IMG/VR virus record: IMGVR_UViG_3300010885_013883 | Location: 1 to 50,176 of that record | Source of the DNA: a virus | DNA length: 50,176 bases | Direction: 5' to 3' (one strand) | Shown here: in pieces, positions 7,339 through 46,682 of the stretch | Layout: every line of letters begins with the position of its first letter | Position numbering within the stretch: the stretch's first letter is position 1 | Translations under genes and position numbers: made by a program | Notes under the pieces: generated by a model | Told to the model about the DNA's origin: nothing | What the model saw: only the letters and a program-made list of their open reading frames with translations | Databases searched by the model: none

Positions 7339-7367
7339 TTGACAGAAATTCACTCCTGCGCTATAAT
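7339..7367 (+). promoter_or_regulatory. Consensus sigma70 promoter A
   Basis: TTGACA (7339-7344), 17-nt spacer, TATAAT (7362-7367). Both hexamers are perfect. It drives the small gene at 7399 and opens the early-type region. Confidence 0.9.
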
Positions 7368-7398
7368 AATGGCATAGTGTAACAAAACAGGAGTTGAT

Positions 7399-7665
7399 AT
7401 GTCCAAAGAAATCAAAATTAAAGTATTCGGCGACTCTGGTCATGCTTGGGCCCGTTTCCCTAAAGCTCGCTTGGTTAAACTTGGTATTGCTGACAAGATC
7501 ACTCCTTACAGTTATCAAAATGGTGCTAATGCCTTTTTGGAAGAAGACTGTGATTTGTCCACACTGATTAACACTTTACAGGCTCAAGGTTTTAAGATTA
7601 AATTTCAAGAAAGTTATACCAACAAACGAAGCAAGATTCGTAGTTATAACTCTTATAGGGTTTGA
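7399..7665 (+). CDS. Small hypothetical early protein
   Basis: An 88-aa basic protein (many Lys/Arg at the C terminus, ending KRSKIRSYNSYRV). It has a consensus promoter 32 nt upstream and CAGGAG before the ATG, so strong early expression by the host RNA polymerase is expected. No domain recognised. It is 1 nt from the next gene. Confidence 0.85.
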   Translation: MSKEIKIKVFGDSGHAWARFPKARLVKLGIADKITPYSYQNGANAFLEEDCDLSTLINTLQAQGFKIKFQESYTNKRSKIRSYNSYRV

Positions 7666-7666
7666 T

Positions 7667-7903
7667 ATGGGTTGGATAGTTTATAACAAAGAAACCGGCC
7701 GAGGAGAACGGTATTACAAAACTGAATCCGTAGCCAAGTCACAGGTTACTCGCCATAACAAAGAAGTAGATTGGCGTGGTGTGCGAGTATCTGAATGGGC
7801 ACATTGTTCATACCTTGACTATGAAGGTATTCTAATGGGAATGGATAATTCTACTTGGTGCATGTGGAAATTCTTCCAGCATGGAAAATTTGCCAATAAT
7901 TGA
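7667..7903 (+). CDS. Small hypothetical early protein
   Basis: A 78-aa Trp/Tyr-rich protein (GWIVYNKETGRGERYYK at the N terminus; WCMWKFFQHGKF near the end). The N-terminal half resembles short phage proteins beginning YxVYNxxT, but I cannot name a family. It is cotranscribed from promoter A. Its stop codon TGA (7901-7903) lies inside the -35 box of promoter B. Confidence 0.8.
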   Translation: MGWIVYNKETGRGERYYKTESVAKSQVTRHNKEVDWRGVRVSEWAHCSYLDYEGILMGMDNSTWCMWKFFQHGKFANN

Positions 7904-7919
7904 CTGAAATTGGTTTTGG
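7893..7919 (+). repeat. Promoter-cassette repeat, copy 1
   Basis: A 27-bp unit, CCAATAATTGACTGAAATTG followed by GTTTTGG, occurs here and again without mismatch at 8322-8348. Degenerate relatives of its core (TTGACAGAAATTGG) occur at 9280 and 9372. The unit carries the last codons of the preceding gene, its TGA stop and the -35 box of the next promoter. Confidence 0.85.
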
Positions 7920-7928
7920 TGTTATAAT
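7900..7928 (+). promoter_or_regulatory. Sigma70-like promoter B (stop codon inside the -35)
   Basis: TTGACT (7900-7905), 17-nt spacer, TATAAT (7923-7928) with extended TG. CCAAT/ATTGG half-sites flank the -35 as an inverted repeat. Confidence 0.88.
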
Positions 7929-7954
7929 TAATACTTAGAAACAAGGAGTTGGCA

Positions 7955-8152
7955 ATGGGTTATCGTGTTATGAATTCTGTGGACAATATGCGTGAAAAAT
8001 ATACTGCCCGCAAAGGCTTGGAAGGTCCTTTCAACTACGATGGTCGAGTTCTTTACTACGATCCAAAAGAAGGTGCCTACTACGATCCGACCACAGACTT
8101 CTATGTGGAGAATGATGAGTTGGCTATCATAATGAAAATGTCAAACGTCTAA
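7955..8152 (+). CDS. Small hypothetical early protein
   Basis: A 65-aa protein rich in Tyr and Asp (repeated YYDP motifs: LYYDPKEGAYYDPTTDFY). The frame can also open at a TTG at 7949, but that codon directly abuts AAGGAG (7943-7948). ATG 7955 is 6 nt from the RBS and is the start used. It is driven by promoter B. No family recognised. Confidence 0.8.
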   Translation: MGYRVMNSVDNMREKYTARKGLEGPFNYDGRVLYYDPKEGAYYDPTTDFYVENDELAIIMKMSNV

Positions 8153-8161
8153 GGAGCTGTC

Positions 8162-8332
8162 ATGGACTTTGCTATTAAGATTATCAAAGATGTCGGTGAA
8201 GTTGGCATTGACACAGAAGCCAGTCCTGGCAACGGCCGTTTCTATGTTAAACTTTATGATGGCTCATATGATGCCGCGGGGTTTGAATCTCTTGAAGAAG
8301 CCCTGGCAGAGTTGGAATTCACCAATAATTGA
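8162..8332 (+). CDS. Small hypothetical early protein (56 aa)
   Basis: A 56-aa acidic ORF beginning MDFAIKIIKDVGE and ending LEFTNN. AAGGAG stands just before the ATG, 9 nt after the previous stop. The C-terminal pattern (YDAAGFESLEEALAEL) looks like a small alpha/beta unit. The stop codon (8330-8332) lies inside the -35 box of promoter C. The end sequence, with Asn-Asn and then TGA, is shared at DNA level with the end of the gene at 7667 because both carry the promoter-cassette repeat. Confidence 0.75.
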   Translation: MDFAIKIIKDVGEVGIDTEASPGNGRFYVKLYDGSYDAAGFESLEEALAELEFTNN

Positions 8333-8348
8333 CTGAAATTGGTTTTGG
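8322..8348 (+). repeat. Promoter-cassette repeat, copy 2
   Basis: Identical 27 bp to the unit at 7893-7919, in the same position relative to gene end, stop codon and promoter. Confidence 0.85.
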
Positions 8349-8357
8349 CAGTATAAT
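8329..8357 (+). promoter_or_regulatory. Sigma70-like promoter C (stop codon inside the -35)
   Basis: TTGACT (8329-8334), 17-nt spacer, TATAAT (8352-8357). It drives the gene at 8383. Confidence 0.88.
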
Positions 8358-8382
8358 ACATATATCAAAACAAGGAACAGAT

Positions 8383-8616
8383 ATGTTGGTAGAACAATTA
8401 CAATCAGTTTACTACAATGAACGTCATGGTGGTCCATACGATCGCGGCCAAGCAGACAGCTACTATGGTCGTGAATATAATCCACACTATTTTACCGGCG
8501 ACAGTTATAACAGCACTCGCATCGAGTTGGTGGATATGAGTGTCCAAGAAATTCTAGCATACACCGCAGGCTATCGAGACAACGAAGCCAACGGCAATAA
8601 GAAAGATTTTGATTGA
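8383..8616 (+). CDS. Small hypothetical early protein
   Basis: A 77-aa Tyr- and Gly-rich acidic protein. The frame extends to 8329, but that is inside promoter C and the ATG at 8383 is preceded by AAGGAA. The TGA stop (8614-8616) lies in the -35 of promoter D, the third such overlap in this region. No domain recognised. Confidence 0.8.
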   Translation: MLVEQLQSVYYNERHGGPYDRGQADSYYGREYNPHYFTGDSYNSTRIELVDMSVQEILAYTAGYRDNEANGNKKDFD

Positions 8617-8642
8617 CAATAAATACCAAATAATGCTATAAT
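8613..8642 (+). promoter_or_regulatory. Sigma70 promoter D
   Basis: TTGACA (8613-8618), 18-nt spacer, TATAAT (8637-8642) with extended TG. The -10 sits at the centre of a dyad (8626-8654). Confidence 0.85.
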
Positions 8643-8654
8643 AGCATTTATTGG
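8626..8654. promoter_or_regulatory. Dyad centred on the -10 of promoter D
   Basis: Arms CCAAATAATGCTA (8626-8638) and TAGCATTTATTGG (8642-8654) are complementary apart from two positions, with a 3-nt centre. The placement fits an operator, or a hairpin at the 5' end of the RNA. Confidence 0.5.
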
Positions 8655-8663
8655 AAAAAGAAT

Positions 8664-8831
8664 ATGAAACAAGTAAACAAGCTCATCGTTAAAGTGCCAC
8701 GCACCAAGCGCCGTGCTGATTTCTTGTTCCATAGTGGCGAATTCCGTAGTCAGTCAGTGCCTAGTGCCAAATTGTACAATCGTAAAAAATTGGAAAAATT
8801 TGGTAAAAAAGATATTGACACAAATGATTGA
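8664..8831 (+). CDS. Small basic hypothetical early protein (55 aa)
   Basis: A 55-aa, strongly basic protein (MKQVNKLIVKVPRTKRRADF and, near the end, NRKKLEKFGKKDID). It has its own consensus promoter (D), and only a weak purine-rich site (GGAAAAAG) precedes the ATG. The -35 of promoter E lies within its last codons. The charge suggests nucleic-acid binding, which is inference. Confidence 0.7.
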   Translation: MKQVNKLIVKVPRTKRRADFLFHSGEFRSQSVPSAKLYNRKKLEKFGKKDIDTND

Positions 8832-8843
8832 ATTTGCTACAAT
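8815..8843 (+). promoter_or_regulatory. Sigma70 promoter E
   Basis: TTGACA (8815-8820), 17-nt spacer, TACAAT (8838-8843) with extended TG. It drives the gene at 8897. Confidence 0.85.
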
Positions 8844-8848
8844 AACGG

Positions 8849-8873
8849 TGTACAGACGTTCTGTACAATTTTT
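8849..8873 (+). terminator. Hairpin plus T-run at the start of the promoter E transcript
   Basis: TGTACAGA / TCTGTACA form a perfect 8-bp stem around CGT (8849-8867), followed closely by TTTTT (8869-8873). It begins about where transcription should start. It may be an attenuator or a 5'-stabilising stem-loop, similar in layout to the promoter/stem-loop cassettes described in T4-type phages. Confidence 0.55.
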
Positions 8874-8896
8874 ACACACACAGAGGAAAATGTAAA

Positions 8897-9148
8897 ATGG
8901 CTACTTCTAAACTTTTTAAAGTTATCGGTAAATCTAACCTTAATGGCAAGGTTAAAGTTCGTTTCGCAAACGATATGACCCGCGTTAAAGTGTTGATCAA
9001 AAATGGTCACACTGATGTGGACTTGTATGAGCTTCCTGAAGCTATGACCAAGGACGCGGCTCTTGCCCATGTTCGTGCAACTAATTTGTTTGTACTCCCC
9101 GAGTCAGTTGAAACGTCTGCAGAAGACGTTGTTGCCGCATCTAAGTAA
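8897..9148 (+). CDS. Small hypothetical early protein
   Basis: An 83-aa protein with beta-strand-rich N terminus (KVIGKSNLNGKVKVRFAND) and an acidic Ser/Val/Ala C terminus. GAGGAAAA precedes the ATG. It has its own promoter (E), a leader hairpin and its own terminator (9164-9190), so it is an independent transcription unit. No family recognised. Confidence 0.85.
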   Translation: MATSKLFKVIGKSNLNGKVKVRFANDMTRVKVLIKNGHTDVDLYELPEAMTKDAALAHVRATNLFVLPESVETSAEDVVAASK

Positions 9149-9163
9149 TTAGACAGGGTAAAC

Positions 9164-9190
9164 GACAACAGGGGCCTAGCCCCTTTTGTC
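9164..9190 (+). terminator. Intrinsic terminator after the 8897 gene
   Basis: GGGGC-CTA-GCCCC (9171-9183) followed by TTTT, with an outer GACAA/TTGTC pairing. This is the most GC-rich terminator in the window. Confidence 0.85.
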
Positions 9191-9434
9191 ACTGTCAAAA
9201 TTCATCAAAAATTGACAAAAATCCCAGAAATTCAGGCTATTTTAAGTTAGTGTATACTAACTTATTAAATACCCAAAAATAGACAGAAATTGGCGGCCCT
9301 GCTATAATACATGTATGGCGGCAGGAAAGCAATTTCTAGCAAATAACAATAAAAACCAAAAATAACAATAATTGACAGAAATTGGTAGCCCTGCTATAAT
9401 ACTTACATAGTTAAACGAAACAGGAGTTTTGCAA
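9191..9434 (+). promoter_or_regulatory. Promoter-dense intergenic region before the AAA+ gene
   Basis: There is no convincing gene in these 244 nt. It holds a 9-bp inverted repeat with 4-nt centre (9243-9264), which overlaps a weak TATACT -10 at 9253-9258. Two related promoters follow. Promoter G is TAGACA (9280-9285), N17, TATAAT (9303-9308). Promoter H is listed separately. A 16-codon ORF (9315-9365) lies 6 nt after promoter G; it may be a remnant or chance. Confidence 0.7.
9372..9400 (+). promoter_or_regulatory. Consensus sigma70 promoter H for the AAA+ gene
   Basis: TTGACA (9372-9377), 17-nt spacer, TATAAT (9395-9400) with extended TG. It shares GAAATTGG and CCCTGC spacer blocks with promoter G, so the two are recent duplicates in tandem. 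Confidence 0.9.
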
Positions 9435-10514
9435 ATGGCACAAGTTACAGTTTTGCGTGGCGAGTATCGCGGTGTTACAGTTAAGAATCAAACATTCCGT
9501 TTGGTAGCAGACCTTAAGCAAGGTACCAAAGGTAATTTTGTTACAGTTGAAGATGATGGCTCATTGGGTTATCCCGGCAAAGCTATCCGTATTAAAGTTA
9601 AAACAATGGAGGATATTACTATGTCAGGTACCAGTGTAGCAGACATGTCAGACAGCCAACGTCGTCAGGCTAACAAAGATGACGGCAATGTATTTTCGTT
9701 GATGACTCCCAAAGAGCCAGAAGTGTACGCAGAAAGCGAAGAAGCCGCTATCCAACGTATTCGCGAACGTTTCGACATCTTGGATCAAATGGCAGAAGGT
9801 ACTACGTCAGGTGCAGTTCGTGCAATGATTGTCAGTGGCCCTCCAGGAGTTGGTAAGAGCTTTGGTGTTGAACGAGTGTTGGAACAGGCCGCGCTCTTTG
9901 ACAAGATGGCCAACCGCAAAGCTCGTTTTGAAGTTGTTAAAGGCGCTATGAGTGCTATTGGTTTGTACTGCAAATTGTATCAGTTCAGTGATGCCAACAA
10001 TGTACTGGTGTTCGACGACTGTGACAGCATCTTGCTTGATGACCTGAGCTTGAACATTTTGAAAGCGGCCTTGGACAGTTCTAAGAAACGTACTATTTCT
10101 TGGAACACAGATTCTAGCATGTTGCGTCGTGAAGGTGTGCCAGATCGTTTTGACTTCAAAGGTAGTGTGATTTTTATCACCAACATCAAGTTCGAACATG
10201 TGCGTTCTAAGAAGTTGAAAGACCACTTGGATGCGTTGGAAAGCCGTTGCCACTATTTGGACTTGACCATGGACACCCAGCGTGACAAGTTCTTGCGTAT
10301 CAAACAAATCGTTCAAGATGGTATGCTTGACAGCTACGATTTTGAAGATGGTGCATCCAATGAAATTGTTGAGTATGTATGGGAACAACGTGCTCGTCTG
10401 CGTGAGTTGTCATTGCGTACAGTTTTGAAGATTGCAGACCTGCGTAAAATGAGCGCAGGCAATTGGAAACGTCTTGCAGAGACAACAATTCTAAAACGTG
10501 CAGAAGTGTGCTAA
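9435..10514 (+). CDS. AAA+ ATPase of unknown role
   Basis: A 359-aa cytoplasmic ATPase. The N-terminal ~60 residues form a small, beta-rich unit. The AAA+ module follows with Walker A GPPGVGKS (135-142), Walker B VLVFDDCD (about 190-197), a sensor-1 Asn in FITN (247-250), and an Arg in ALESRCHYLDL that may be an arginine finger. The Walker B ends DDCD, not the usual DE. It is not clearly clamp-loader gp44. The nearest relatives I can suggest are phage AAA ATPases of the MoxR/CbbX type. AGGAG precedes ATG 9435. Two or three promoters upstream suggest high early expression. Confidence 0.85.
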   Translation: MAQVTVLRGEYRGVTVKNQTFRLVADLKQGTKGNFVTVEDDGSLGYPGKAIRIKVKTMEDITMSGTSVADMSDSQRRQANKDDGNVFSLMTPKEPEVYAESEEAAIQRIRERFDILDQMAEGTTSGAVRAMIVSGPPGVGKSFGVERVLEQAALFDKMANRKARFEVVKGAMSAIGLYCKLYQFSDANNVLVFDDCDSILLDDLSLNILKAALDSSKKRTISWNTDSSMLRREGVPDRFDFKGSVIFITNIKFEHVRSKKLKDHLDALESRCHYLDLTMDTQRDKFLRIKQIVQDGMLDSYDFEDGASNEIVEYVWEQRARLRELSLRTVLKIADLRKMSAGNWKRLAETTILKRAEVC

Positions 10515-10520
10515 TTAATA

Positions 10521-10556
10521 ATAAATCCCAATTAATTGATGTTAATTAGGATTTAT
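10521..10556. promoter_or_regulatory. Large dyad around the -35 of the protease promoter
   Basis: ATAAATCC and GGATTTAT (outer) plus AATTAA and TTAATT (inner) form a 14-bp dyad with one mismatch. Its 6-nt centre TTGATG is the -35 box. It may be an operator or a weak terminator hairpin for the AAA+ gene. No T-run follows. Confidence 0.55.
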
Positions 10557-10564
10557 GTTATAAT
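10536..10564 (+). promoter_or_regulatory. Sigma70 promoter I of the exported-protease unit
   Basis: TTGATG (10536-10541), 17-nt spacer, TATAAT (10559-10564) with extended TG. Confidence 0.82.
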
Positions 10565-10592
10565 ACATACATGTTAAGCAATAAGGAATTGT

Positions 10593-12671
10593 ATGAACTT
10601 GAAACTTACACTCACAGCACTGGCAGTAGCATCATTCGTAGGAAGTGTGCAGGCTCAGGTAGCCAATGCAGAAGCTAATGCTAAATCATCTTATCTTACT
10701 ACAATTGGTGCCACTGCCGCTTGGAGTCGTGGCATCACAGGTAAAGGTTCTATTATTGCAGTCGTTGACCAAGGCTTTGCACTTGATCACACAGACATTA
10801 AAGGCAATCTTTTAGAAGCTAAAAACTTTTATCCAGGTACAGTTACTAATTGGGGCTTGCATGGCACAGAGATGGCCAGTATTGCCGGCGGTGTTGCTAA
10901 CAATTCGGGTACAGTTGGTGTTGCACCCGATGCCAAACTTTTATTGGCACAGGTTGGTAGTGGTGGCACCACTACAGGTGTTAGCATGGCATCAGTGTTG
11001 CAGGCAATGACTTGGGCAGACAGTAAAGGTGCCACAGTAATTAATTTGAGTCTAGGTGCTACTTATGATGCCAATTTTAAAGCTGGCACTACTATGATGG
11101 CTCCTGGAATTTATCGAGCTGACCCGCGCTATACAAACACCAGTACCGGAGCAATGGCCAGTGTTTTTGGTAACAAAATTTCTGACATTAACGCATTTGC
11201 AACAGCAACAAGATCATCAGTGATCGTTGCCAGCGCAGGCAACAGCGGTACAGGCTATGCACAATTTCCAGGTGCATTTGCTACACAGACAGATGCCAAT
11301 GGTAATTTATTGTTAGGTGGTCGTGTACTAATTGTTGGTAATGTTAAGGGTGATGGTAAGGGTGGTTGGGTAATGGATGCTAGTAGCAACCAAGCTGGTA
11401 GTATCTGTTCTAACATTGTTGCCAATGTATGTCAAGACAAATACTATGTCAAAGACTTTTATGTTGTAGCACCGGGTAGTAGTATCTGGGGTGCAGTACC
11501 AGACCAAGCTCGTAGCACAGCAGGTATTTCTTCTAATATTACAAATGGTGCTGGCGGTGTTAGTGGTACAAGCCCAGCGGCCGCAGAAGTCAGTGGCGGT
11601 ATTGCATTGATGCATCAGGCATGGCCACAGCTCAAAGCAAGTCAGTTGGTACAAGTTGTTTTGAATACTGCTACGTCTTTGGGTGACAGTAATGTCTATG
11701 GAAAAGGTATGGTGAACTTTGACAAGGCCACACAGCCTTATGCAGACATCAAATACTCTAAGGCAGCACTGACTTCGGGTACACCAGTTGGCGGTACAGC
11801 ATTAACTGCCACAGGTGCTTCGTTGAGCATTAACTCTCTGCGATCCAGCACCGTGTTAGCCAATGTCCAAGTAGTTGATGGTATTAACAGAAACTTTACC
11901 TCCGACTTTACTAAGGCCATGGGCGTTAGTAATCCCGCTAACAGTTTGTATACCAGTCCTTACTTGGCAATAAATGCTATTAACTATCGAGAATTTGCAG
12001 TTCCTTATGGTAAAGATACTGTATTAACTTTCATGCAAAGTCAAAATGGTTTTGCCAGTCAAGTCGACACAGCATATGGCAATGGTAGATTGCAACTACA
12101 AGTAGGTGCAATGACTGAACAAAATGGTTTTTTAAACAACTATGGCTCGGGCTTGTTAGGCATGGGTAATAGTAACACTACATACGCAATGGTGGGCGGT
12201 TCAACACCAATTACTGGAAGTGTGGATTTGATTGGTAGTTATGGTCTTGGCATTACACGAACAAGTAATGCACAAGACAGTATGCTGGCATTGAGTTCAA
12301 CTATTATCAGCGACACTTGGAAAGTTGGTCTAGCTAAGAAAGATATCTTCTTCAGCGGTAAGACCAAGGATCAAGTAACTTTTGCAGTACAAGGTCCAGT
12401 ATCTGTGCGTCGAGGTTATGCAGACGTGACAGCAGTTACAGGCTACACTTATAGTGGCGCCGATGATAATGTAACAGCTAGTCCAACATCAACCACAGAA
12501 CGTGTTAATCTTGCCAACAATACTAGACAAACTGATTTGGTGTTAGGCTATAATGTCAGTGTTGGCAATACAACTTATGCAGGCATCAACTTTGCTCGAC
12601 AGTTTAACGTCGGTGGTATGTCAGGTCAAACAGGTAATGCTGTTGGTGTTATGGTTCGTAGTGTATTCTAA
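10593..12671 (+). CDS. Exported subtilisin-like serine protease (S8) with outer-membrane-like C terminus
   Basis: A 692-aa peptidase S8. A Sec signal peptide (residues 1-21, cleavage after VQA) is followed by the catalytic domain: Asp 59 in VVDQG, His 90 in LHGTEMASI, oxyanion Asn 217 in ASAGNSG, and Ser 327 in SGTSPAAAEVSG. The usual GTSMAAP is altered to GTSPAAA. After about residue 380 comes a beta-rich, Ser/Gly/Asn-rich region of some 310 residues. It ends VMVRSVF with terminal Phe, as in outer-membrane beta-barrels, so an autotransporter-like or surface-anchored protease is plausible. AAGGA precedes the ATG. A phage-encoded secreted protease is unusual. Possible roles are envelope remodelling, receptor removal or lysis. 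Confidence 0.9.
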   Translation: MNLKLTLTALAVASFVGSVQAQVANAEANAKSSYLTTIGATAAWSRGITGKGSIIAVVDQGFALDHTDIKGNLLEAKNFYPGTVTNWGLHGTEMASIAGGVANNSGTVGVAPDAKLLLAQVGSGGTTTGVSMASVLQAMTWADSKGATVINLSLGATYDANFKAGTTMMAPGIYRADPRYTNTSTGAMASVFGNKISDINAFATATRSSVIVASAGNSGTGYAQFPGAFATQTDANGNLLLGGRVLIVGNVKGDGKGGWVMDASSNQAGSICSNIVANVCQDKYYVKDFYVVAPGSSIWGAVPDQARSTAGISSNITNGAGGVSGTSPAAAEVSGGIALMHQAWPQLKASQLVQVVLNTATSLGDSNVYGKGMVNFDKATQPYADIKYSKAALTSGTPVGGTALTATGASLSINSLRSSTVLANVQVVDGINRNFTSDFTKAMGVSNPANSLYTSPYLAINAINYREFAVPYGKDTVLTFMQSQNGFASQVDTAYGNGRLQLQVGAMTEQNGFLNNYGSGLLGMGNSNTTYAMVGGSTPITGSVDLIGSYGLGITRTSNAQDSMLALSSTIISDTWKVGLAKKDIFFSGKTKDQVTFAVQGPVSVRRGYADVTAVTGYTYSGADDNVTASPTSTTERVNLANNTRQTDLVLGYNVSVGNTTYAGINFARQFNVGGMSGQTGNAVGVMVRSVF

Positions 12672-12685
12672 TTCAAAAGGTGTAT

Positions 12686-13468
12686 ATGAAATTTAAATCT
12701 ATATTTGTTGTTCTAGCCGTTGCAGGCATTATTGGAAATTTAGGCGGATGCGCTTTTGCACAACTTAAAACTAATCCTGATGAATATAAAGTTATTAGGC
12801 CTTACGGAGTTAAAGAACCTACTGCCACAGTAATTCTTGCTCATGGCTGTGATGGTTTTTCTTACAGCAAAGGCTACGGATATCGTCGACGGGCCAATGC
12901 TATAGCGCAAACAGATAACTATAATGTTGTGCTATATGATGCATTTACTCCACGTGGTTGGAAATATGATGAAGTGTGTACAGGCGACCGCGGAGCAGGT
13001 GCCAATGCAGTTCCTCCTTATCTTCGCATTGAAGATGCTAAACAAATTGCTCAATGGATTCAGCAACAACCTTGGCACAAAGGAAAGATTTCTTTCATTG
13101 GTTACAGCCATGGTGGAAGTGTGGCAATGGCACTGGCCAATGACGAAGAAGCCAGTAAGTTAATTAGTTCTGCGGTTGCTTACTATCCTAATTGTGATGA
13201 AGGTTATATTAGACACAGTACAGGCCGTCCACTGATTCCTACTATGGTTCATATGGGCGAAGCTGATGTGTGGACACCGCCAGCCGCTTGTTTGCGTTAC
13301 AAAGATCGACCAAACTACGAAATGTTCTTGTATAAAGATGCCACCCATGCATGGGATGCACAGTCGAATTTTACAGCTATTGGTCGGTGGCAAATTCGAT
13401 ACAACATGGATGCAGAAGCTTTGGCAGAAAAACGCACCAACGAATTTTTCAAAAGAACATTAAACTAA
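12686..13468 (+). CDS. Lipoprotein alpha/beta-hydrolase (dienelactone-hydrolase-like)
   Basis: A 260-aa hydrolase with a lipoprotein signal: hydrophobic h-region, then lipobox LGGC with Cys 22 as the lipidation site. The alpha/beta-hydrolase triad is visible as Ser 141 in GYSHGG, Asp 194 in GEADVW and His 221 in DATHAWD. HGCDGF near 53-58 may form the oxyanion hole. The family is dienelactone hydrolase-like and the substrate is unknown. The frame also opens at a GTG at 12680, but that overlaps the AAAAGG site, so ATG 12686 is used. It sits 14 nt after the protease gene and shares its transcript, forming an export pair. Confidence 0.87.
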   Translation: MKFKSIFVVLAVAGIIGNLGGCAFAQLKTNPDEYKVIRPYGVKEPTATVILAHGCDGFSYSKGYGYRRRANAIAQTDNYNVVLYDAFTPRGWKYDEVCTGDRGAGANAVPPYLRIEDAKQIAQWIQQQPWHKGKISFIGYSHGGSVAMALANDEEASKLISSAVAYYPNCDEGYIRHSTGRPLIPTMVHMGEADVWTPPAACLRYKDRPNYEMFLYKDATHAWDAQSNFTAIGRWQIRYNMDAEALAEKRTNEFFKRTLN

Positions 13469-13503
13469 TTATTTAGAACTGTTAATAACAGAAGGAAAAC
13501 AAC

Positions 13504-14610
13504 ATGGCTTCACTATCTAAGACCAAACTTAAAGAACAGCGTATTGCCAAATATTTGGCACAGTTTGCTACTAGGTTTGAAATGGAAGATTCGTATATCG
13601 ATCTTCGTACAATGGCGGAAAACTTTCCTAACGGCATTATTCCAAATAAAGCCATTGGCGAAGCTGTAGCGGCCGTACTTGGACCTTCACTTATTCCTAG
13701 ATTGTCTATTGACCCGCAGTTACTTAATGTTCCTAAGTTTGCATGGGTGTCTATGGACGATATTGCCATTAACCCACGTTTCCAGCGTGACGTTATGCCA
13801 AATCATATTGCCAAGATTGAGTCATTGTTTAAAGCAGAGACTATTATTGTGCCCTGTGCTATTAAAGATCCGGTGTCAGGCAAATATTTGTTCTGGGACG
13901 GCCATCACACCACACGAGTTTGTGAACGTCAAGGATGGACTCATATGCCTTGCTGGTATACAGAAGCACAAATTGACGACACACATTCTGTGGAAGAAGC
14001 AACAAAGATTTTGATTAGTCATGCTGGCAATAGTATGATTACTATTAACAAGAGTGGCAAACGTGAATTAAGTTTGTATGACGCACATATGATCGGCGTT
14101 GACTGCGGCCACGCTGAGCCAGTTGTTATCCAAAACATCTGTGATGCCAACAACGTTCGTGTACGTAAAGCAAGTTCAAAAGCCGGAGACATTAGTCACA
14201 TCAACCATTTATATGGTGCATACGGTCTTGTACAATCTAGTTCAGGTATTAAAGGTATCTATCTTGCTCGAGCATTGCGTTTCTGCCGTGCTACTTGGCC
14301 TAAAGAAATTATTCAACCCATTGTTATGTTCAGCATGGCACGACTGTATCAACATACGGAAATGCAAACAGGTGTATTGTTACCAACAGCATTTGACGAC
14401 GAGCTTGGTACTATCCTTAAGAAGAAGTACGGACCTGCTGAAGTCGTGCATGACGAACAAACTGGTTTTAAAGCTCAATTCATTCAACAATTTGGTTCGC
14501 TAGCTGGTCACCCGGAAGTTGTTACCAGTGGTTTAATCCTCACCTACAATAAACATGGCAAAGGCGGATTCAAACTTGCTCAGCCCGAAGCTACCTATCC
14601 TGTAAAATGA
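13504..14610 (+). CDS. ParB/Srx-fold protein
   Basis: A 368-aa cytoplasmic protein. Residues about 75-150 resemble the ParB/sulfiredoxin N-terminal fold. NPRFQRDVMPNHIAKIESLF is followed by the DGHH motif (132-135) in LFWDGHHTTRVCERQG, where many members have DGHHR. The remaining 220 residues have no domain I recognise. Phage ParB-like proteins of this type can be nucleases, CTPases or regulators. AGAAGGAAAA stands before the ATG, and the stop overlaps the next gene by 4 nt. A small CTGTT-AAT-AACAG dyad lies just upstream. Confidence 0.75.
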   Translation: MASLSKTKLKEQRIAKYLAQFATRFEMEDSYIDLRTMAENFPNGIIPNKAIGEAVAAVLGPSLIPRLSIDPQLLNVPKFAWVSMDDIAINPRFQRDVMPNHIAKIESLFKAETIIVPCAIKDPVSGKYLFWDGHHTTRVCERQGWTHMPCWYTEAQIDDTHSVEEATKILISHAGNSMITINKSGKRELSLYDAHMIGVDCGHAEPVVIQNICDANNVRVRKASSKAGDISHINHLYGAYGLVQSSSGIKGIYLARALRFCRATWPKEIIQPIVMFSMARLYQHTEMQTGVLLPTAFDDELGTILKKKYGPAEVVHDEQTGFKAQFIQQFGSLAGHPEVVTSGLILTYNKHGKGGFKLAQPEATYPVK

Positions 14611-15032
14611 TCAAAGACTATATTCTTTACTTTAAGAAGTGTCCGGGAGTCACCGATCCTAAACATTTCAAAGTAGGCATTGCACAATTAGCCACTGCTC
14701 GTTCGCGACTTGCTACATATCAAAATGCTGTAGGACCCGTATGGGAAGAAAGTTTTATGCTAGTATGGGTTGGAGACGAAAATCAAATTCGACTAGCTGA
14801 AAAAGCATTTAAACGTTTCTTCAAAGATAAAATCTCAAGTGCAGAAGCAGGACTCAGCGAATGGATATGTAATGTAACCTTAGAAGAATTACTAGAGTAT
14901 ATTACTGAACTTAGGGAAGAACATTTTATTAAATTCATTGATGTACCGAAAAAATTTCTTCCGTTGACCATGCCACTGTGCGAAGATCTTGCGTTATGGT
15001 ATGAAGACAATAGACCTGCAGAAGAAATTTAA
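14607..15032 (+). CDS. T5orf172/GIY-YIG-like protein (probable)
   Basis: A 141-aa protein coupled by ATGA overlap to the ParB-like gene. YILYFKKCPG, then FKVGIAQLATARSRLATYQN, then an AEKAFKRFF segment follow the T5orf172/MUG113 pattern (KxGxxxxxxxRLxxYxN...AExxxxxxF), a relative of GIY-YIG endonucleases. Nuclease activity is not certain, because the Tyr-Ile-Leu-Tyr start is degenerate. It is the last gene of the accessory unit, and an intrinsic terminator follows. Confidence 0.55.
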   Translation: MIKDYILYFKKCPGVTDPKHFKVGIAQLATARSRLATYQNAVGPVWEESFMLVWVGDENQIRLAEKAFKRFFKDKISSAEAGLSEWICNVTLEELLEYITELREEHFIKFIDVPKKFLPLTMPLCEDLALWYEDNRPAEEI

Positions 15033-15048
15033 TTAAAATGAACAAATT

Positions 15049-15073
15049 AAGCAACCTTTAAGGTTGCTTTTTT
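15049..15073 (+). terminator. Intrinsic terminator overlapping the uvsW promoter
   Basis: AAGCAACC / GGTTGCTT stem with loop TTTAA, then six T. The 3' arm and first Ts are also the -35 region of the uvsW promoter (15064-15069). Confidence 0.88.
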
Positions 15074-15093
15074 GTGGCTGTATATGCTATAAT
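15064..15093 (+). promoter_or_regulatory. Extended -10 promoter of uvsW (leaderless)
   Basis: TTGCTT (15064-15069), 18-nt spacer, TATAAT (15088-15093) with TG-C before it. The predicted start is at about 15100, the A of the uvsW ATG. Confidence 0.7.
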
Positions 15094-15099
15094 TGTTCT

Positions 15100-16554
15100 A
15101 TGACATCATGTACAATACATATTAAAGACGAAGTCAATATTAAAGTAAGTGGCTTGGAAGTTAGCACAAGACGCAAGATAGAAAAAGAACTAAAATATTT
15201 TATGCCTTATGCCTATCATGTTCCGGCATATAAATTAGGTCGATGGGATGGTTGTGTAAGTTATTTTAGTTTGGCTGGCGCTTCTTATTTTAATCTGCTA
15301 GATAGAATTTTACCTCATTTGGTAGATGATGGTTATCAAATTGACATTGATGATCAACGACCCATGCATAACTTTGCTTTTCCGGAAGTGTGCGAAACTA
15401 CACATAGTCAGCATGTTTGGCCCAAAGGGCATCCAAAAGAAGGCGAACCCATTGAGCTAAGAGATTATCAAGTAAATGCTATCAATCAGTTCTTGACTAA
15501 CTTACAATGTGTGCAAGAGATTGCCACAGGCGCAGGTAAAACGTTGATGACTGCTACAATGAGTAAATGCGTAGAACCATATGGCCGTAGTATTGTTATT
15601 GTGCCTAATAAAGATTTGGTTAGACAAACAGAATCGGACTATAAGAATTTGGATTTAGATGTAGGCGTATACTTTGGCGATAGGAAAGATCTTAATAAGA
15701 CTCATACAATTTGTACATGGCAAAGTCTTAACAGTTTACAAAAGAGATTCAAAGACGGAGAAAGTCCCATGAGTCTAGAAGAATTTGCAGATGGTGTGAT
15801 AGCAGTTATTGTAGACGAAGTTCACCAAGCCAAAGCAGATGTATTAAAAGCATTGCTCAGTGGTGCATTTGCCAATGTGCCTATCCGTTGGGGACTAACA
15901 GGAACTATACCTAAAGAAGATTTTGAGCAAATTGGGTTAGTGGCTTGCATAGGAAATGTGGTAAATAAAATAGCCGCCAGTGATCTTCAAGACATCGGTG
16001 TGCTGGCAGATTGTCACGTTAATGTTATACAACTACAAGATACTGTAGAATATAATACATACCAGGAAGAACTTACATACTTAACAACCAATACTCGTCG
16101 TGTTGATTTCATCAGTAACTTTATCGAACGATTAAGTGAAAGTGGAAACACATTGGTATTAGTTGATAGAGTTAAATGCGGGGAAATGATCTGCGAACGT
16201 TTAGGCGACAAAAGTGTATTTGTCAGCGGATCAATGAAATCAACAGACAGGAAAGATCATTACGATGAGATTAGCGTATCGGATAAAAAGATTATTGTGG
16301 CGACTTATGGTGTGGCCGCTGTGGGTATTAATATTCCTCGTATTTTTAATTTGGTTCTTCTGGAGCCCGGAAAAAGCTTTACTAGAGTTATCCAAAGCAT
16401 TGGACGGGGTATTAGACGAGCTCAAGATAAGGACCATGTAAACATCTGGGACTTAACATCCAGTGCAAAGTTTAGTAAAAAGCATCTGACGGTGCGTAAA
16501 AAATATTATCAGGATGCCAAGTATCCTTTTAGTATCGAGAAAGTAAAATATTAA
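15100..16554 (+). CDS. uvsW: UvsW-like DNA helicase
   Basis: A superfamily-2 helicase of 484 aa (T4 UvsW 503 aa) that unwinds R-loops and reverses forks in the switch to recombination-dependent replication. It has a UvsW-type N-terminal domain (1-110), then a Q-like RDYQ motif near 121, Walker A ATGAGKT (142-148), DEVH box (239-242), GLTGT motif III, and a C-terminal lobe with QSIGRGIRR. The frame opens further upstream at 15064, but that overlaps the terminator/promoter. ATG 15100 lies 6 nt after the -10 with no Shine-Dalgarno, so the mRNA should be leaderless. Confidence 0.93.
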   Translation: MTSCTIHIKDEVNIKVSGLEVSTRRKIEKELKYFMPYAYHVPAYKLGRWDGCVSYFSLAGASYFNLLDRILPHLVDDGYQIDIDDQRPMHNFAFPEVCETTHSQHVWPKGHPKEGEPIELRDYQVNAINQFLTNLQCVQEIATGAGKTLMTATMSKCVEPYGRSIVIVPNKDLVRQTESDYKNLDLDVGVYFGDRKDLNKTHTICTWQSLNSLQKRFKDGESPMSLEEFADGVIAVIVDEVHQAKADVLKALLSGAFANVPIRWGLTGTIPKEDFEQIGLVACIGNVVNKIAASDLQDIGVLADCHVNVIQLQDTVEYNTYQEELTYLTTNTRRVDFISNFIERLSESGNTLVLVDRVKCGEMICERLGDKSVFVSGSMKSTDRKDHYDEISVSDKKIIVATYGVAAVGINIPRIFNLVLLEPGKSFTRVIQSIGRGIRRAQDKDHVNIWDLTSSAKFSKKHLTVRKKYYQDAKYPFSIEKVKY

Positions 16555-42968: not shown

Positions 42969-43306
42969 CAAAAAACATGGTAACACAGTCAAATATCAAT
43001 ATGGATCAAGCTCGCAGAGTCGCGGATCGATATCAAATTAGTAATATTAAAACAAGAATAGAAGAAAGAGTGCGGCATTTACCCACACATTCACGGGACA
43101 TATGGGACGAGACTAGTTATATAGATTTTGATAGATACATGGAACGAAGTCATGTAACTATGCTTACCATGGATATTGCTGAACCGGAATTTGCCAAGAT
43201 GGTTAGTACATTAGATGACTGGGATGATATGATGCGCGATCCCGAAGCGGCAAGACTAATTTTAGAAGCTAAATTTATACACAGATTAAGAAAAGGAGCG
43301 ATATGA
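42959..43306 (+). CDS. Hypothetical protein
   Basis: A 115-aa charged helical protein (NMDQARRVADRYQISNIKTR; TLDDWDDMMRDPEAARLIL). No motif, membrane segment or signal peptide. Tight overlaps with both neighbours show that it is translated as part of the promoter J operon. Confidence 0.8.
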   Translation: MAITKNMVTQSNINMDQARRVADRYQISNIKTRIEERVRHLPTHSRDIWDETSYIDFDRYMERSHVTMLTMDIAEPEFAKMVSTLDDWDDMMRDPEAARLILEAKFIHRLRKGAI

Positions 43307-44139
43307 GAAATCACTATTGGACATGTAGTAAATTTGCAGATTGGATTCGCGGGACCACTAAACTCAAAGCAGGTACCAGCGAGGAATGGCATGAATGGGA
43401 AGATCGTGCTAAAGCCGCATACCCCATTCGTTGGTGGTTGGCCGAAGAAGGTTTAGACTACATTCAAAAAGTTGTTTATTACATACCGGATAAATTAAAT
43501 GATGTTAGATATTATATTAATAATCGTTGGGTCAGTCGCAGTCATAGTCTTACCGCTCATGTTCGCGATATTCGCCCTGGCTCTTGGAGCGATGTTGGGA
43601 ATAGATTCCTGCCATGCCTATTTAACGAGCTTCAAGACTTTGTTGAAATAGAGCAAGCCTGGCATCACTGTATGTGGAGTGACGAAGCTAAAACCAAGTT
43701 TGATGTGCCATGGTACCGTAGTGGATGGTTGCGCTGGAGAACTTGGCGGTGCCCAGAAGCAGGTATGGAGTATCTAAAGTGGGCCAGTAGTCTCACTATA
43801 GGTGAAGATATGGGGGCAGAACCAGGCAGTAAAGGTTTTGGAGAACCTACTTGGCAAGCTAAATCTGCCAAGGAAATTATTGAGCTGTACAACTGGTGGA
43901 CCGTGACCTATCGCAACCGTCCAGACCCATACGAAGCAAGTGGGTGGACTGCGGCCTGTGAAGCAAGTCGTGCGGCTAACGGTGGACGTCTAAGTTTTAG
44001 TGTAGATAAAGATCCAGTGCTTAAAAAGGCCAGCGACAACGCTCACAAGCTACTTCAAAAGATTGAAGCGGCTTACGAAAAGGAAGACGAAGAAATGATG
44101 ATTCGTCTTATCAAAATTAGACAAAGCCTATGGACTTAA
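43303..44139 (+). CDS. Conserved phage hypothetical protein (Trp-rich)
   Basis: A 278-aa protein with over 20 Trp residues (MRNHYWTCSKFADWIRGTTK; YPIRWWLAEEGLDYIQKV; AWHHCMWSDEAKTKF). This N-terminal pattern occurs in hypothetical proteins of several large phages. The function is not known. The His/Cys/Trp clusters suggest a compact, possibly metal-binding fold. It overlaps the next small ORF by 10 nt. Confidence 0.82.
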   Translation: MRNHYWTCSKFADWIRGTTKLKAGTSEEWHEWEDRAKAAYPIRWWLAEEGLDYIQKVVYYIPDKLNDVRYYINNRWVSRSHSLTAHVRDIRPGSWSDVGNRFLPCLFNELQDFVEIEQAWHHCMWSDEAKTKFDVPWYRSGWLRWRTWRCPEAGMEYLKWASSLTIGEDMGAEPGSKGFGEPTWQAKSAKEIIELYNWWTVTYRNRPDPYEASGWTAACEASRAANGGRLSFSVDKDPVLKKASDNAHKLLQKIEAAYEKEDEEMMIRLIKIRQSLWT

Positions 44140-44309
44140 ATCCAAATTACTGCGAATGTGAAAATAAAAAATCGTACTCGGAAGAGTACGATGCATACTA
44201 TTGTACCACTTGTAATAAGTGGTTAGAATCTAAATGCGATGATCCAACATGTGAGTTCTGCGTTAATCGTCCAGTAACACCTTTAGGAGACAAAAATGGC
44301 AACACGTAA
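44130..44309 (+). CDS. Small zinc-ribbon protein (59 aa)
   Basis: A 59-aa ORF with eight Cys: CEC, CTTC, then Cys-x5-Cys-x2-Cys near residues 36-44. This arrangement should bind one or two zinc ions. It overlaps the previous gene by 10 nt and the next by 14 nt, in keeping with genuine coupling. The role may be protein or nucleic-acid contact. Not recognised. Confidence 0.7.
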   Translation: MDLNPNYCECENKKSYSEEYDAYYCTTCNKWLESKCDDPTCEFCVNRPVTPLGDKNGNT

Positions 44310-44562
44310 AAAGAAATCCGAAAACACTACACTAGAAATGCCTGGCACTATTGGCAGCGCCAAGTTGGTATTTCCAAACGAACCAAAAGTAGTAAAAGGT
44401 AGTCACTTAACTGTGACCACATTTGCTGACGGTTCTACTAAATTAGAATGGGATGATGAAGCATTGACAAGAGACGTACGAGATGCTATACTAAAAGCGG
44501 AAAGTAAGATTCCTGCAAGCGCAGAAGTTAAACCAAAACGTAAGAAAAAAGAAAATAGTTAA
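44296..44562 (+). CDS. Small hypothetical protein with basic ends
   Basis: An 88-aa protein with Lys-rich N and C termini (MATRKKKSEN; KPKRKKKENS) flanking a beta-type core (LTVTTFADGSTKLEWDDEAL). TTAGGAGA precedes the ATG. Last gene before a hairpin terminator (44608-44630). Not recognised. Confidence 0.78.
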   Translation: MATRKKKSENTTLEMPGTIGSAKLVFPNEPKVVKGSHLTVTTFADGSTKLEWDDEALTRDVRDAILKAESKIPASAEVKPKRKKKENS

Positions 44563-44607
44563 ACTAAAATATTATAGCTGATGGCATATATTACACTAAC
44601 TAAATTA

Positions 44608-44630
44608 GAGGAACCTTATTCCTCATTTTT
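44608..44630 (+). terminator. Hairpin with T-run, probable terminator
   Basis: GAGGAA / TTCCTC stem (6 bp, loop CCTTA), then A and five T. Moderate stability. Confidence 0.6.
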
Positions 44631-44641
44631 AGGAGATAGTA

Positions 44642-44815
44642 ATGGAAATAATAATGATTTTGATATTGGTTTATCAAGTAACAATGCCCGCAGTTAACAA
44701 TGCCAAATACACATTTGGTGTAGTAGAAGATCGCATAGTTCGTATGAATACACAAGATGGTTCATTTGAAGAATGTGATAAAGATTATAAATGTAAGCCT
44801 ATTATAGATAACTGA
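44642..44815 (+). CDS. Small membrane/exported protein (57 aa)
   Basis: A 57-aa ORF. A hydrophobic N terminus (MEIIMILILVYQV) could be a signal anchor, and the rest is polar with two Cys (ECDKDYKC) that could form a disulphide. TAGGAGA precedes the ATG. It lies alone between the terminator and the acidic gene pair. Not recognised. Confidence 0.65.
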   Translation: MEIIMILILVYQVTMPAVNNAKYTFGVVEDRIVRMNTQDGSFEECDKDYKCKPIIDN

Positions 44816-44825
44816 AAGGAAATAT

Positions 44826-45329
44826 ATGGCACAGTGGACTGTTAGCACTTATCACAAAAAATCTTGCCAAGAAGTTGAACACTGGGTTCGACGAGAAGGC
44901 GATGGTCGAATCACAGTCACTAACGGTTATCGTTATGGCGAATGGACTGTAGAAACTACAGACGACAATCCGCCAGAATTTGAGTTTACAGAAGTACCCG
45001 GCGGTGATGGTCGTAAAGACAGTATCAATATGCTAGACTGCGAAGTTAACAATATTGAAAGTGTTGAACTTGTTGAAATGTTCGACGGTGGTTGCTGGTA
45101 TGATGTAGAATTTGAAGATCTTACAGAAGAAGAGGAAGAAGAGATTCAAGAGTTTATTGATGAAAATAGCATCTATGAATTAGAAGATCGTGAAGATGAT
45201 TCCTGGTACAACGATGAAACCGAATGGTGGATTTGGGGACCAATTGAAATCAAAAACGAAGCAGGCGAAACTGTACGTATTATATGTGCAGATGAAGATG
45301 GCAATGTAATTAACTTTGTAGAAGAATAA
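44826..45329 (+). CDS. Acidic hypothetical protein, paralog 1
   Basis: A 167-aa protein with very high Asp/Glu content, including a long Glu run (EDLTEEEEEEIQEF), and many Trp. It shares layout with the following gene: N-terminal HKKS, then a (Y)RWG/YGEW turn, a middle GCWYDVEF versus ACWFEF, and C-terminal EDGxVI. The two are tandem paralogs. The acidity would allow DNA mimicry (anti-restriction or anti-nucleoid), which is speculation. AAGGA precedes the ATG. 1-nt overlap with the next (TAATG). Confidence 0.8.
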   Translation: MAQWTVSTYHKKSCQEVEHWVRREGDGRITVTNGYRYGEWTVETTDDNPPEFEFTEVPGGDGRKDSINMLDCEVNNIESVELVEMFDGGCWYDVEFEDLTEEEEEEIQEFIDENSIYELEDREDDSWYNDETEWWIWGPIEIKNEAGETVRIICADEDGNVINFVEE

Positions 45330-45883
45330 TGTCTAAAGTATACCTAATCAAACCCTTACATAAAAAGAGCATTTGCTGGCACGTTGAAATGTATCGTGAC
45401 AATGCAGACGGTTCTATCAGCTGGTTCAACGTTGACGATCACTATCGCTGGGGGCAAGGGTTTGTTGAAGAAGACATGGCATGTAACTTGCCCATTGAAG
45501 GGGATATCCAAGCTCATGCTAAAATGGACTGCGGATGGGGTGCTGAACTAGACGACCAACACGCCTGCTGGTTTGAGTTTAGTGATGATATTTCAGAAGA
45601 AGAACAAGAACACATTAAAATATGCTATATAGAAGGCGATCCCAACGACGACGATGAGCGTGGCGGCGCGGCATGGTTGTTTGATGGCAGTCACGATTGG
45701 CAAGTTGAAGATGACTATCTTGTTATTGATGCACCGTACCAAGTTAGCTTATGCGAAGATGATGGTACCGTCATTGAAGAAAATGTAAAACTACGTACCA
45801 AAGAAGAAATTGCTGTAGAAATAAAAAAATGGCATGAAGAAAATAAAGCTAATAAATGGCCATTTGACACGGAGACACTATGA
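45329..45883 (+). CDS. Acidic hypothetical protein, paralog 2
   Basis: A 184-aa acidic protein, paralogous to the preceding one. It has LHKKSICWHVEMYRDNADGS at the N terminus, HACWFEFSDDISEEEQEHI in the middle and LCEDDGTVIEENVKLRTKEE near the end. It carries an extra basic/amphipathic tail (VEIKKWHEENKANKW) absent from paralog 1. Overlaps the next gene by 4 nt. No family recognised. Confidence 0.8.
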   Translation: MSKVYLIKPLHKKSICWHVEMYRDNADGSISWFNVDDHYRWGQGFVEEDMACNLPIEGDIQAHAKMDCGWGAELDDQHACWFEFSDDISEEEQEHIKICYIEGDPNDDDERGGAAWLFDGSHDWQVEDDYLVIDAPYQVSLCEDDGTVIEENVKLRTKEEIAVEIKKWHEENKANKWPFDTETL

Positions 45884-46074
45884 GTAAATTTGATTTAACA
45901 ATTGATAAAGAAACAGCAGACAAGATAACAGTTCTTAATTTAAATGATTATAAAGATTACTTAAAAAAAGAATTAAGAGGTTTTAAAAAAGGTGAATGGC
46001 TACATCCTGAAGATGTGGAACATAACACTAAAATGATAGAAGCCATTGATTTCGTACTACGAGATTATACATAA
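45880..46074 (+). CDS. Small hypothetical protein
   Basis: A 64-aa charged protein (MSKFDLTIDKETADKITVLN; DVEHNTKMIEAIDFVLRDY). The end looks like a helix typical of small phage proteins. Coupled to paralog 2 by ATGA. Not recognised. Confidence 0.78.
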   Translation: MSKFDLTIDKETADKITVLNLNDYKDYLKKELRGFKKGEWLHPEDVEHNTKMIEAIDFVLRDYT

Positions 46075-46082
46075 GGAACGAT

Positions 46083-46682
46083 ATGAAACAAGAACTAGAC
46101 GCATTGCTATGTGAAAAGTATCCTAAGATGATGGTTAATCGCAACAAGCCTATGACAGAAACTTGTATGTGCTGGGGCTTTGAATGTGGAGATGGTTGGT
46201 ACAACATCCTTAATCAACTTATGGGCAATATCCAACATCACATCGATTGGAAGGAACGTCAGCGTGATTGGGCCGTCAAGTATAACGAAATGGCACAAGC
46301 TGGCAAGAGTGGTAATGCAGAATTGTTTGCTGATTTGGTTGCTAAAGAGTACGCAGACCAGCCAACTATCGGTGCAGACTACATCCGTGAACGTTGCGAA
46401 GAAATGATTAAGAATCCTTTGCGTGATGTTCCAGAACTTGTTCCCCAAGTGACATTGGACCAAGTTAAAGAAAAGTTTGGCACACTACGTTTTTACTACA
46501 CAGGCGGTGATGACTATATTAGAGGAATGGTTACTATGGCAGAAGCTATGAGTGGCTGTACTTGCGAATCGTGCGGTAACCCCGGCGAACGCCGAGGTGG
46601 CGGATGGGTCCGCACAATTTGCGAACCCTGTGAGGAAAAGAAAAATGCAATGCAAAAATTGTCACAGACAATACTCACCTGA
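46083..46682 (+). CDS. Conserved phage hypothetical with C-terminal zinc ribbon
   Basis: A 199-aa protein. An N-terminal CMCWGFECGDGWYNILNQLM and a middle VKEKFGTLRFYYTGGDDYIR match hypothetical proteins common in large phages and prophages. A C-terminal zinc ribbon (CTCESCGNPGERR and CEPCEE) closes the protein. Function unknown. AAGGA precedes the ATG. Overlaps the next small ORF by 38 nt. Confidence 0.82.
   Translation: MKQELDALLCEKYPKMMVNRNKPMTETCMCWGFECGDGWYNILNQLMGNIQHHIDWKERQRDWAVKYNEMAQAGKSGNAELFADLVAKEYADQPTIGADYIRERCEEMIKNPLRDVPELVPQVTLDQVKEKFGTLRFYYTGGDDYIRGMVTMAEAMSGCTCESCGNPGERRGGGWVRTICEPCEEKKNAMQKLSQTILT

Follow-up and report, generated by a model that had tools for sequence, protein, structure and literature searches.

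The 50,176-base virus record IMGVR_UViG_3300010885_013883 (hereafter the window, meaning this whole stretch of DNA) carries an accessory slot, with the AAA-ATPase gene on one side and the UvsW helicase gene on the other, that is swappable and independently transcribed in large uncultured T4-like phages. Here the slot (positions 10,521 to 15,073) holds four open reading frames arranged head to tail on the plus strand and bracketed by one promoter and one terminator; they encode a putatively exported subtilase, a lipoprotein hydrolase, a ParB-like protein and a T5orf172-like protein. A previous sequence-only reading of this DNA, made without database searches, had proposed such an accessory unit, and the genes, promoter and terminator were all found in place, with both signals kept in relatives and the content of the slot variable. 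The surprising parts are a conserved, single-copy protease with a predicted barrel in an uncultured phage clade and the obligate pairing of the ParB-like and T5orf172-like genes. The features of the region and its borders are as follows.

9435–10514, plus strand: AAA-ATPase (phrog_1250), the left border, outside the unit; a conserved gene and the query of the unbiased survey below.
10523–10554, plus strand: hairpin-forming inverted repeat with 13-bp arms and a six-base loop that holds the -35 element; supported by covariation.
10536–10564, plus strand: promoter of the unit, TTGATG, 17 nucleotides, TATAAT, with TG preceding the -10 element; 10 of 12 consensus matches, kept in 13 aligned relatives.
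10593–12671, plus strand: S8 subtilase of 692 amino acids, predicted to be exported and to end in a beta-barrel, from Pfam, conservation and structure prediction.
12686–13468, plus strand: lipoprotein alpha/beta-hydrolase, dienelactone-hydrolase-like (Pfam DLH, E 1e-10; lipobox NLGGC).
13504–14610, plus strand: ParB-like protein of 368 amino acids (PHROG ParB-like, E 0.027; DGHHT motif).
14607–15032, plus strand: T5orf172/MUG113-like GIY-YIG protein of 141 amino acids, its gene overlapping the ParB-like gene by ATGA.
15049–15077 (stem 15049–15069), plus strand: intrinsic terminator with a 9-bp stem and a T-run that closes the unit; kept in relatives immediately before UvsW.
15100–16554, plus strand: UvsW-type helicase, the right border, outside the unit, from database profile matches.

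The subtilase is laid out as a signal peptide (residues ~1–21), an S8 domain (~35–382), a linker (~383–465) and a predicted barrel (~466–690), with Phe692 as its last residue. Residues 50–372 match Pfam Peptidase_S8 (PF00082) with an E value of 6.8e-32, and the catalytic Asp59, His90 and Ser327, together with the oxyanion Asn217, are kept in all 39 distinct homologues. The N-terminus resembles a Sec signal in all homologues, with a basic start, a hydrophobic core and an AQA-type end, in agreement with the signal-peptide subtilase of the sequence-only reading. That reading had also pointed out that the protease ends in a Phe as outer-membrane barrels do; the terminal Phe is present in 38/38 complete homologues, and structure prediction of the C-terminal part returned an outer-membrane-type barrel. 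Specifically, a barrel-only model built from 35 sequences shows 12–13 strands in the C-terminal ~230 residues (predicted local distance difference test, pLDDT, 86; predicted template modelling score 0.78), and 50 of the 50 PDB fold matches listed for it are outer-membrane barrels, namely porins, BamA and the autotransporters EspP, AaaA, BrkA and Hbp. A predicted C-terminal outer-membrane barrel is well supported by this modelling. By profile, the nearest solved relative of the protease domain is 8e7f, an extracellular serine protease, and a full-length structural match to the subtilase comes from an uncultured phage (A0A6J5TBB6). An origin of the whole subtilase from a host was rejected, as a scan of bacterial and archaeal genomes gave five distant S8 matches only, all in Clostridia-type genomes, and plasmids matched in the protease domain alone (27–30%). 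The literature searches turned up no paper describing a phage subtilase that bears such a barrel, and an aquatic phage paper that was checked makes no mention of one.

Promoter-like sites number 27 in the region against 20.5 expected, so a single consensus promoter match proves little. The stretch that separates the AAA gene from the subtilase is, however, kept in the 13 aligned relatives, and the promoter is interlocked with the hairpin: the -35 element lies within the loop, the 3' arm forms the spacer, and the extended -10 element lies beyond the 3' arm. Covariation in the hairpin is clear, with 91.7% of cells paired and both sides changed in 5 of 13 pairs (shuffled mean 1.9); cells in which both sides have changed number 8, against a shuffled mean of 2.2, and 0 of 500 shuffles reach 8. 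The window's own copy has one C–A mismatch. An early-type pattern, TTGAC-N15-TGNTATAAT with at most two mismatches, occurs at 19 sites in the window against 3.0 expected, the unit promoter among them, and the T4 late promoter, TATAAATA, shows no excess in the window (2 sites against 5.6 expected). Directly after the terminator comes the UvsW promoter, with TATAAT at about 15089–15094. Since promoter, hairpin and terminator are conserved and the promoter fits the early-type pattern, the unit is independently transcribed, and probably early, a timing that we infer from promoter type. All four genes are evidently maintained, given ratios of nonsynonymous to synonymous substitution rates (dN/dS) of 0.03–0.13 among the closer relatives compared. 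The hairpin itself could be terminator-like for the upstream AAA gene, in a terminator–promoter fusion, or could be an operator. Also of note, the overlap of hairpin and promoter is seen in the window (10523–10564) and in the relatives L002, L006, L009, L013, L016–L020, L022 and L024, and near-identical early-type promoters (TTGACNGAAATTGG...TGCTATAAT, at 7339, 7900, 8329, 9280 and 9372) cluster far above chance at window 7339–9400.

The distribution of the subtilase gene was surveyed with the neighbouring AAA gene as the query, a survey thus unbiased towards the subtilase. Of the contigs with a closely related AAA gene, 21 were informative: 17 of them have the subtilase just downstream, with the hydrolase in between in L008; in L031 it lies close by but elsewhere, and L012, L029 and L040 have none between AAA and UvsW. 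The corresponding intervals of the lower-scoring AAA group, all scans pooled, hold a subtilase in 0 of 49, L040, a truncated close relative, being among them. AAA and UvsW are adjacent in L040 (59-nucleotide gap) and in L029 and L031 (106-nucleotide gap). Like a phage "moron", the unit has its own promoter and terminator and is missing from otherwise collinear relatives. Scanning with a subtilase alignment gave 54 loci, the majority in the AAA–UvsW interval (slot A); a second group occupies slot B, between a small helix-turn-helix-like gene and a homologue of window gene 46083–46682. In the tree, the slot-B protein of L007 stands with strong support beside the slot-A proteins of the window and L002, and the slot labels need five changes; the position of L007 implies that the subtilase gene changed slot at least once. 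Exactly one subtilase copy, in one of at least two slots, is present in each of six long contigs (111–285 kb), and its dN/dS is about 0.11–0.13 in the closer pairs. Judged by these comparisons, the subtilase behaves like a core function of the clade, though one that can be relocated, and unlike random cargo. The window's own slot B (43303–46682) holds no subtilase but genes for 167, 184 and 64 amino acids instead; a short open reading frame from about 44642 there has a start that resembles a signal peptide.

These neighbourhoods bear on whether the subtilase could be a virion-associated or virion-maturation protease. Maturation proteases are common in phages, and the best PHROG match of the subtilase, phrog_3677, is labelled "protease". 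However, the protein has a signal peptide, a predicted barrel and an early-type promoter; it is surrounded by replication genes in slot A and by small genes of non-structural appearance in slot B, and no similar gene lies beside the AAA gene in the isolated relatives Paride and PA5oct. We therefore consider a virion role very unlikely. The sequence-only reading had itself raised the prospect of the protease being part of a virion tail module, which was not borne out: the protease gene lies between AAA-ATPase and UvsW in most relatives, and a tail module was rejected in the absence of structural neighbours in either slot.

The last two genes of the unit have a distribution of their own. An alignment scan with the ParB-like protein gave 30 loci, and in all 29 that are not cut by a contig end (some contigs being near-identical) the next gene is T5orf172-like, usually with the four-base overlap. 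The pair occurs in many gene contexts, with identity of the ParB-like protein down to 26%; it is found without the subtilase in six contigs of 79–358 kb, and the subtilase without the pair in three contigs of 115–285 kb, each carrier of either having one copy per record. Constant adjacency in many contexts, often without the subtilase, argues that the two genes are a separate, portable and apparently obligate two-gene module. About twenty residues are invariant in each partner. Those of the ParB-like protein, invariant in 31 homologues, include F93, R95, D96, PNH99–101, D132, H135, T136 and R142, around DGHHT. In the T5orf172-like protein K22, G24, R34, E65 and E85-W86 are invariant in 30 homologues and Y8 is kept in 90%, and the window protein has the Tyr, (K/Y)xG, Arg and catalytic Glu of GIY-YIG/T5orf172 nucleases; with K22, G24, R34 and E65 in 30/30, the earlier GIY-YIG-like assignment stands. 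The Pfam T5orf172 match of the window protein (E 0.024) falls below the cut-off, while the best relative reaches 9.6e-5 and MUG113 matches relatives at 1.7e-5. A profile search for solved relatives of the two proteins gave nothing meaningful.

A known anti-phage defence system was considered and rejected, with nothing specific in PADLOC, which returned only a generic subtilase model (E 4.4e-10) and nothing for the ParB-like or T5orf172-like protein. The mention of ParB in a 2026 paper on a membrane-bound nuclease concerns a fluorescent ParB reporter only. Among isolated phages, a relative of the ParB-like protein was found only in Sinorhizobium phage Phosso (L097 4836–5807), with 26% identity and a DGQHT motif; the gene downstream of it is not recognisably T5orf172-like.

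The pair might also be a purely selfish homing-type element that stands behind the subtilase by chance. T5orf172 genes are common as free-standing homing endonucleases, in the vicinity of essential phage genes and where genetic exchange has its borders (PMC10448857), and the pair here is flanked by replication genes and turns up in many contexts. Published T5orf172 homing enzymes, however, bear their own Zn-finger DNA-binding domain (PMC10448857), whereas seven T5orf172-like members gave no Pfam match to such a domain (CapR, DUF723 or DUF4397), for which 141 amino acids leave little room. The tie to a ParB-like gene in every uncut locus and the single copy per record also look two-component, unlike a proliferating homing gene, and pairs of ParB-like and HNH proteins substitute for this pair in the same slot. 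Homing alone is a possible account of the pair, with the balance tilting somewhat against it.

The hydrolase, whose start we corrected to a probable ATG at 12686, has its nucleophile in GYSHGG, its Asp in GEADVW and its His in DATHAW, and three homologues retain all of these. The lipobox is conserved as STGC and SSGC in the two relatives, with its Cys, which agrees, together with the DLH match, with the lipoprotein hydrolase of the sequence-only reading. The gene is the least conserved of the four and is found in three loci only (window, L008 and L012), each time with the ParB-like/T5orf172-like pair; a viral-contig scan and phage records gave no match. We view it as a third exported enzyme and a loosely linked hitch-hiker.

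That the four genes act together, as one cooperating surface-remodelling or defence unit, was the part of the sequence-only reading that found no support. A single promoter and terminator would fit such a unit, as would the complete set in L008 and the presence of the pair in all three hydrolase loci. Yet when co-occurrence was checked, all four genes were found only in the window and in L008, where their order differs; most relatives have the subtilase without the other three, six long contigs have the pair without the subtilase, and L012 has the last three genes with no subtilase in the slot. A four-gene unit is therefore very improbable.

Relatives carry other cargo in the slot. Behind the subtilase in L009, L015, L019, L135 and L138 lie a second ParB-like protein and an HNH nuclease, apparently a pairing parallel to that of the ParB-like and T5orf172-like proteins, and DNA methyltransferases follow the subtilase in L002 and L030. 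With these and the nuclease sets of relatives, DNA-targeting and DNA-modifying cassettes are the commonest cargo. In L118 the subtilase is followed directly by UvsW. Further arrangements were also observed. A different ParB-like protein (DGQHT motif) and then an HNH nuclease occupy the same slot in L009, L015, L019, L135, L138, L139, L141 and L146, and in L009 and L019 the set adds a 201-amino-acid protein that by eye resembles a PD-(D/E)xK nuclease. Behind the subtilase of L018 (8926–12732) stand a putative nuclease (by motif), an N6/N4 methyltransferase and a 670-amino-acid protein, possibly a phage-borne, restriction-modification-like set. In slot B of L130 and L142, a 346-amino-acid lipobox protein lies two genes downstream of the subtilase.

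Exported degradative cargo recurs as well: directly behind the subtilase of L028 (12245–13399, slot A) lies a lipoprotein that weakly matches alginate lyase (E 6e-5), and the window has its lipoprotein hydrolase. Such company would suit a subtilase with an auxiliary role in nutrition, biofilm release or exit, which, displayed or set free in the course of infection, would digest extracellular or envelope protein as food for the infected cell or aid lysis and progeny dispersal; subtilisin-like autotransporters of bacteria may either stay on the surface or be released (PMC9289746). On the other hand, the early-type promoter and the lack of a late-promoter motif speak against a lysis-stage role, and one copy per genome suggests a core host interaction over optional nutrition, although neither point is decisive. 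We regard an auxiliary role of this kind as doubtful.

Taken together, we interpret the region as an accessory slot with an early-type promoter that holds a surface protease, a portable DNA-targeting nuclease pair and a hitch-hiker hydrolase, and we give this reading a probability of roughly one half. Its architecture is well supported, and its function we infer. We envision that, early in infection of a Gram-negative cell, the subtilase would be exported by Sec, its barrel would be inserted by the beta-barrel assembly machinery (BAM), and the protease domain would be exposed on the outside of the cell. Host surface proteins, most probably receptors or adhesins, would be cut there, such that further phages or released progeny would be unable to adsorb to the cell or its debris, a form of receptor shaving and superinfection exclusion. 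A precedent in principle is Llp, a lipoprotein of phage T5 that acts from the outer membrane to block the T5 receptor (PMC9586334); among bacteria, subtilisin-like autotransporters process further proteins of the cell surface (PMC9289746). The pair, in turn, may act as a nuclease whose cutting component is the GIY-YIG protein, with DNA binding or control provided by the ParB-like protein; the pair could spread the cassette by homing-like cutting of cassette-free relatives, or attack competing DNA. T5orf172 nucleases serve both homing and anti-satellite attack in phages (PMC10448857, PMC8263062). The surface remodelling, superinfection exclusion and defence or counter-defence suggested by the sequence-only reading would thus be candidate roles, proposed from sequence.

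Several points weigh against this interpretation. The signal peptide of the subtilase and the lipobox of the hydrolase were assigned by inspection and conservation. The full-length subtilase model, with its S8 domain, linker and C-terminal run of long strands, has a moderate pLDDT of 71. The fold matches of the barrel are weak (E 1e-3 to 2e-2, TM-score 0.3–0.4), and neither a Pfam match in 35 members, PF03797 included, nor a PDB sequence match was found for it; an outer-membrane barrel is thus supported, but membership of the autotransporter family is not specifically supported and is not established. The ParB fold, with no Pfam match in eight members, rests on the DGHHT-type motif and a weak PHROG match. 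A secreted protease could, finally, be just as useful for nutrition, lysis or biofilm release. A fuller joint version, in which a core barrel protease of a new minimal class shaves the infected-cell surface against competitors while the pair constitutes an undescribed two-component nuclease system against competing DNA in uncultured jumbo phages, is offered as a tentative proposal, clearly less likely than not.

As to the parent phage, the window encodes a T4-type terminase, a single-strand binding protein, UvsX and UvsW (its start corrected to 15100), as well as a DnaB-like helicase, a ribonucleotide reductase and a baseplate hub. Contigs of close relatives reach 233 kb, so the window probably covers roughly one fifth of the genome of a large T4-like phage. 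Among isolated phages, the Pseudomonas phages PA5oct and Paride (Arenbergviridae) come closest, with protein identities of 53% for the terminase and 52% for the AAA-ATPase. The AAA-ATPase homologue in PA5oct (L098 4659–5813) and in some relatives is annotated "thioredoxin", which looks like a misannotation.

Compared with known systems, these two Arenbergviridae phages have neither a subtilase nor a ParB-like pair beside the AAA gene, and their gene order there differs. Bacillus phage subtilases (Goe3, SP-15 and others) share the S8 domain, but the match is limited to ~125 protease residues at 31–34% identity and does not include the barrel. The closest architecture is that of the subtilisin-like classical autotransporters (type Va, "Group 15": NalP, SphB1, SSP), which have in common with the phage protein a signal peptide, an N-terminal S8 protease and, at the C-terminus, an outer-membrane barrel with about 12 strands and an aromatic last residue, the barrel being predicted here. 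They carry a ~200-amino-acid beta-helix stalk (PMC9289746), whereas the phage subtilase has no stalk but a linker of ~80 residues; it also differs in being phage-encoded, in its length of 692 amino acids and in a barrel unrecognised by PF03797. Bacterial and archaeal genome and plasmid scans found no bacterial homologue of the whole architecture, and the literature searched held no mention of phage-encoded subtilisin-like autotransporters. On the strength of its model, the phage subtilase would be a minimal, stalkless analogue of these proteins. Phages are known to block superinfection via small outer-membrane lipoproteins, and the exclusion lipoproteins T5 Llp and T1 Cor share with our proposal the principle of a phage-encoded, exported protein at the outer membrane (PMC9586334); Llp and Cor are small and non-enzymatic, in contrast to the 692-amino-acid protease and ~260-amino-acid hydrolase-fold lipoprotein here. 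If the proposal is true, a conserved, single-copy, barrel-anchored protease of lytic-type phages would add an enzymatic way to rewrite the host surface. The T5orf172 homing endonucleases and Odn of phage ICP1 likewise share T5orf172/GIY-YIG-type residues, are phage-encoded and adjoin essential genes (PMC10448857, PMC8263062). The window protein differs from them in being short, in having no DNA-binding domain of its own, in its obligate, overlapping ParB-like partner and in its one copy per record, and this pair, portable between contexts and phages, would make a clean candidate for a system of interference or homing with two components.

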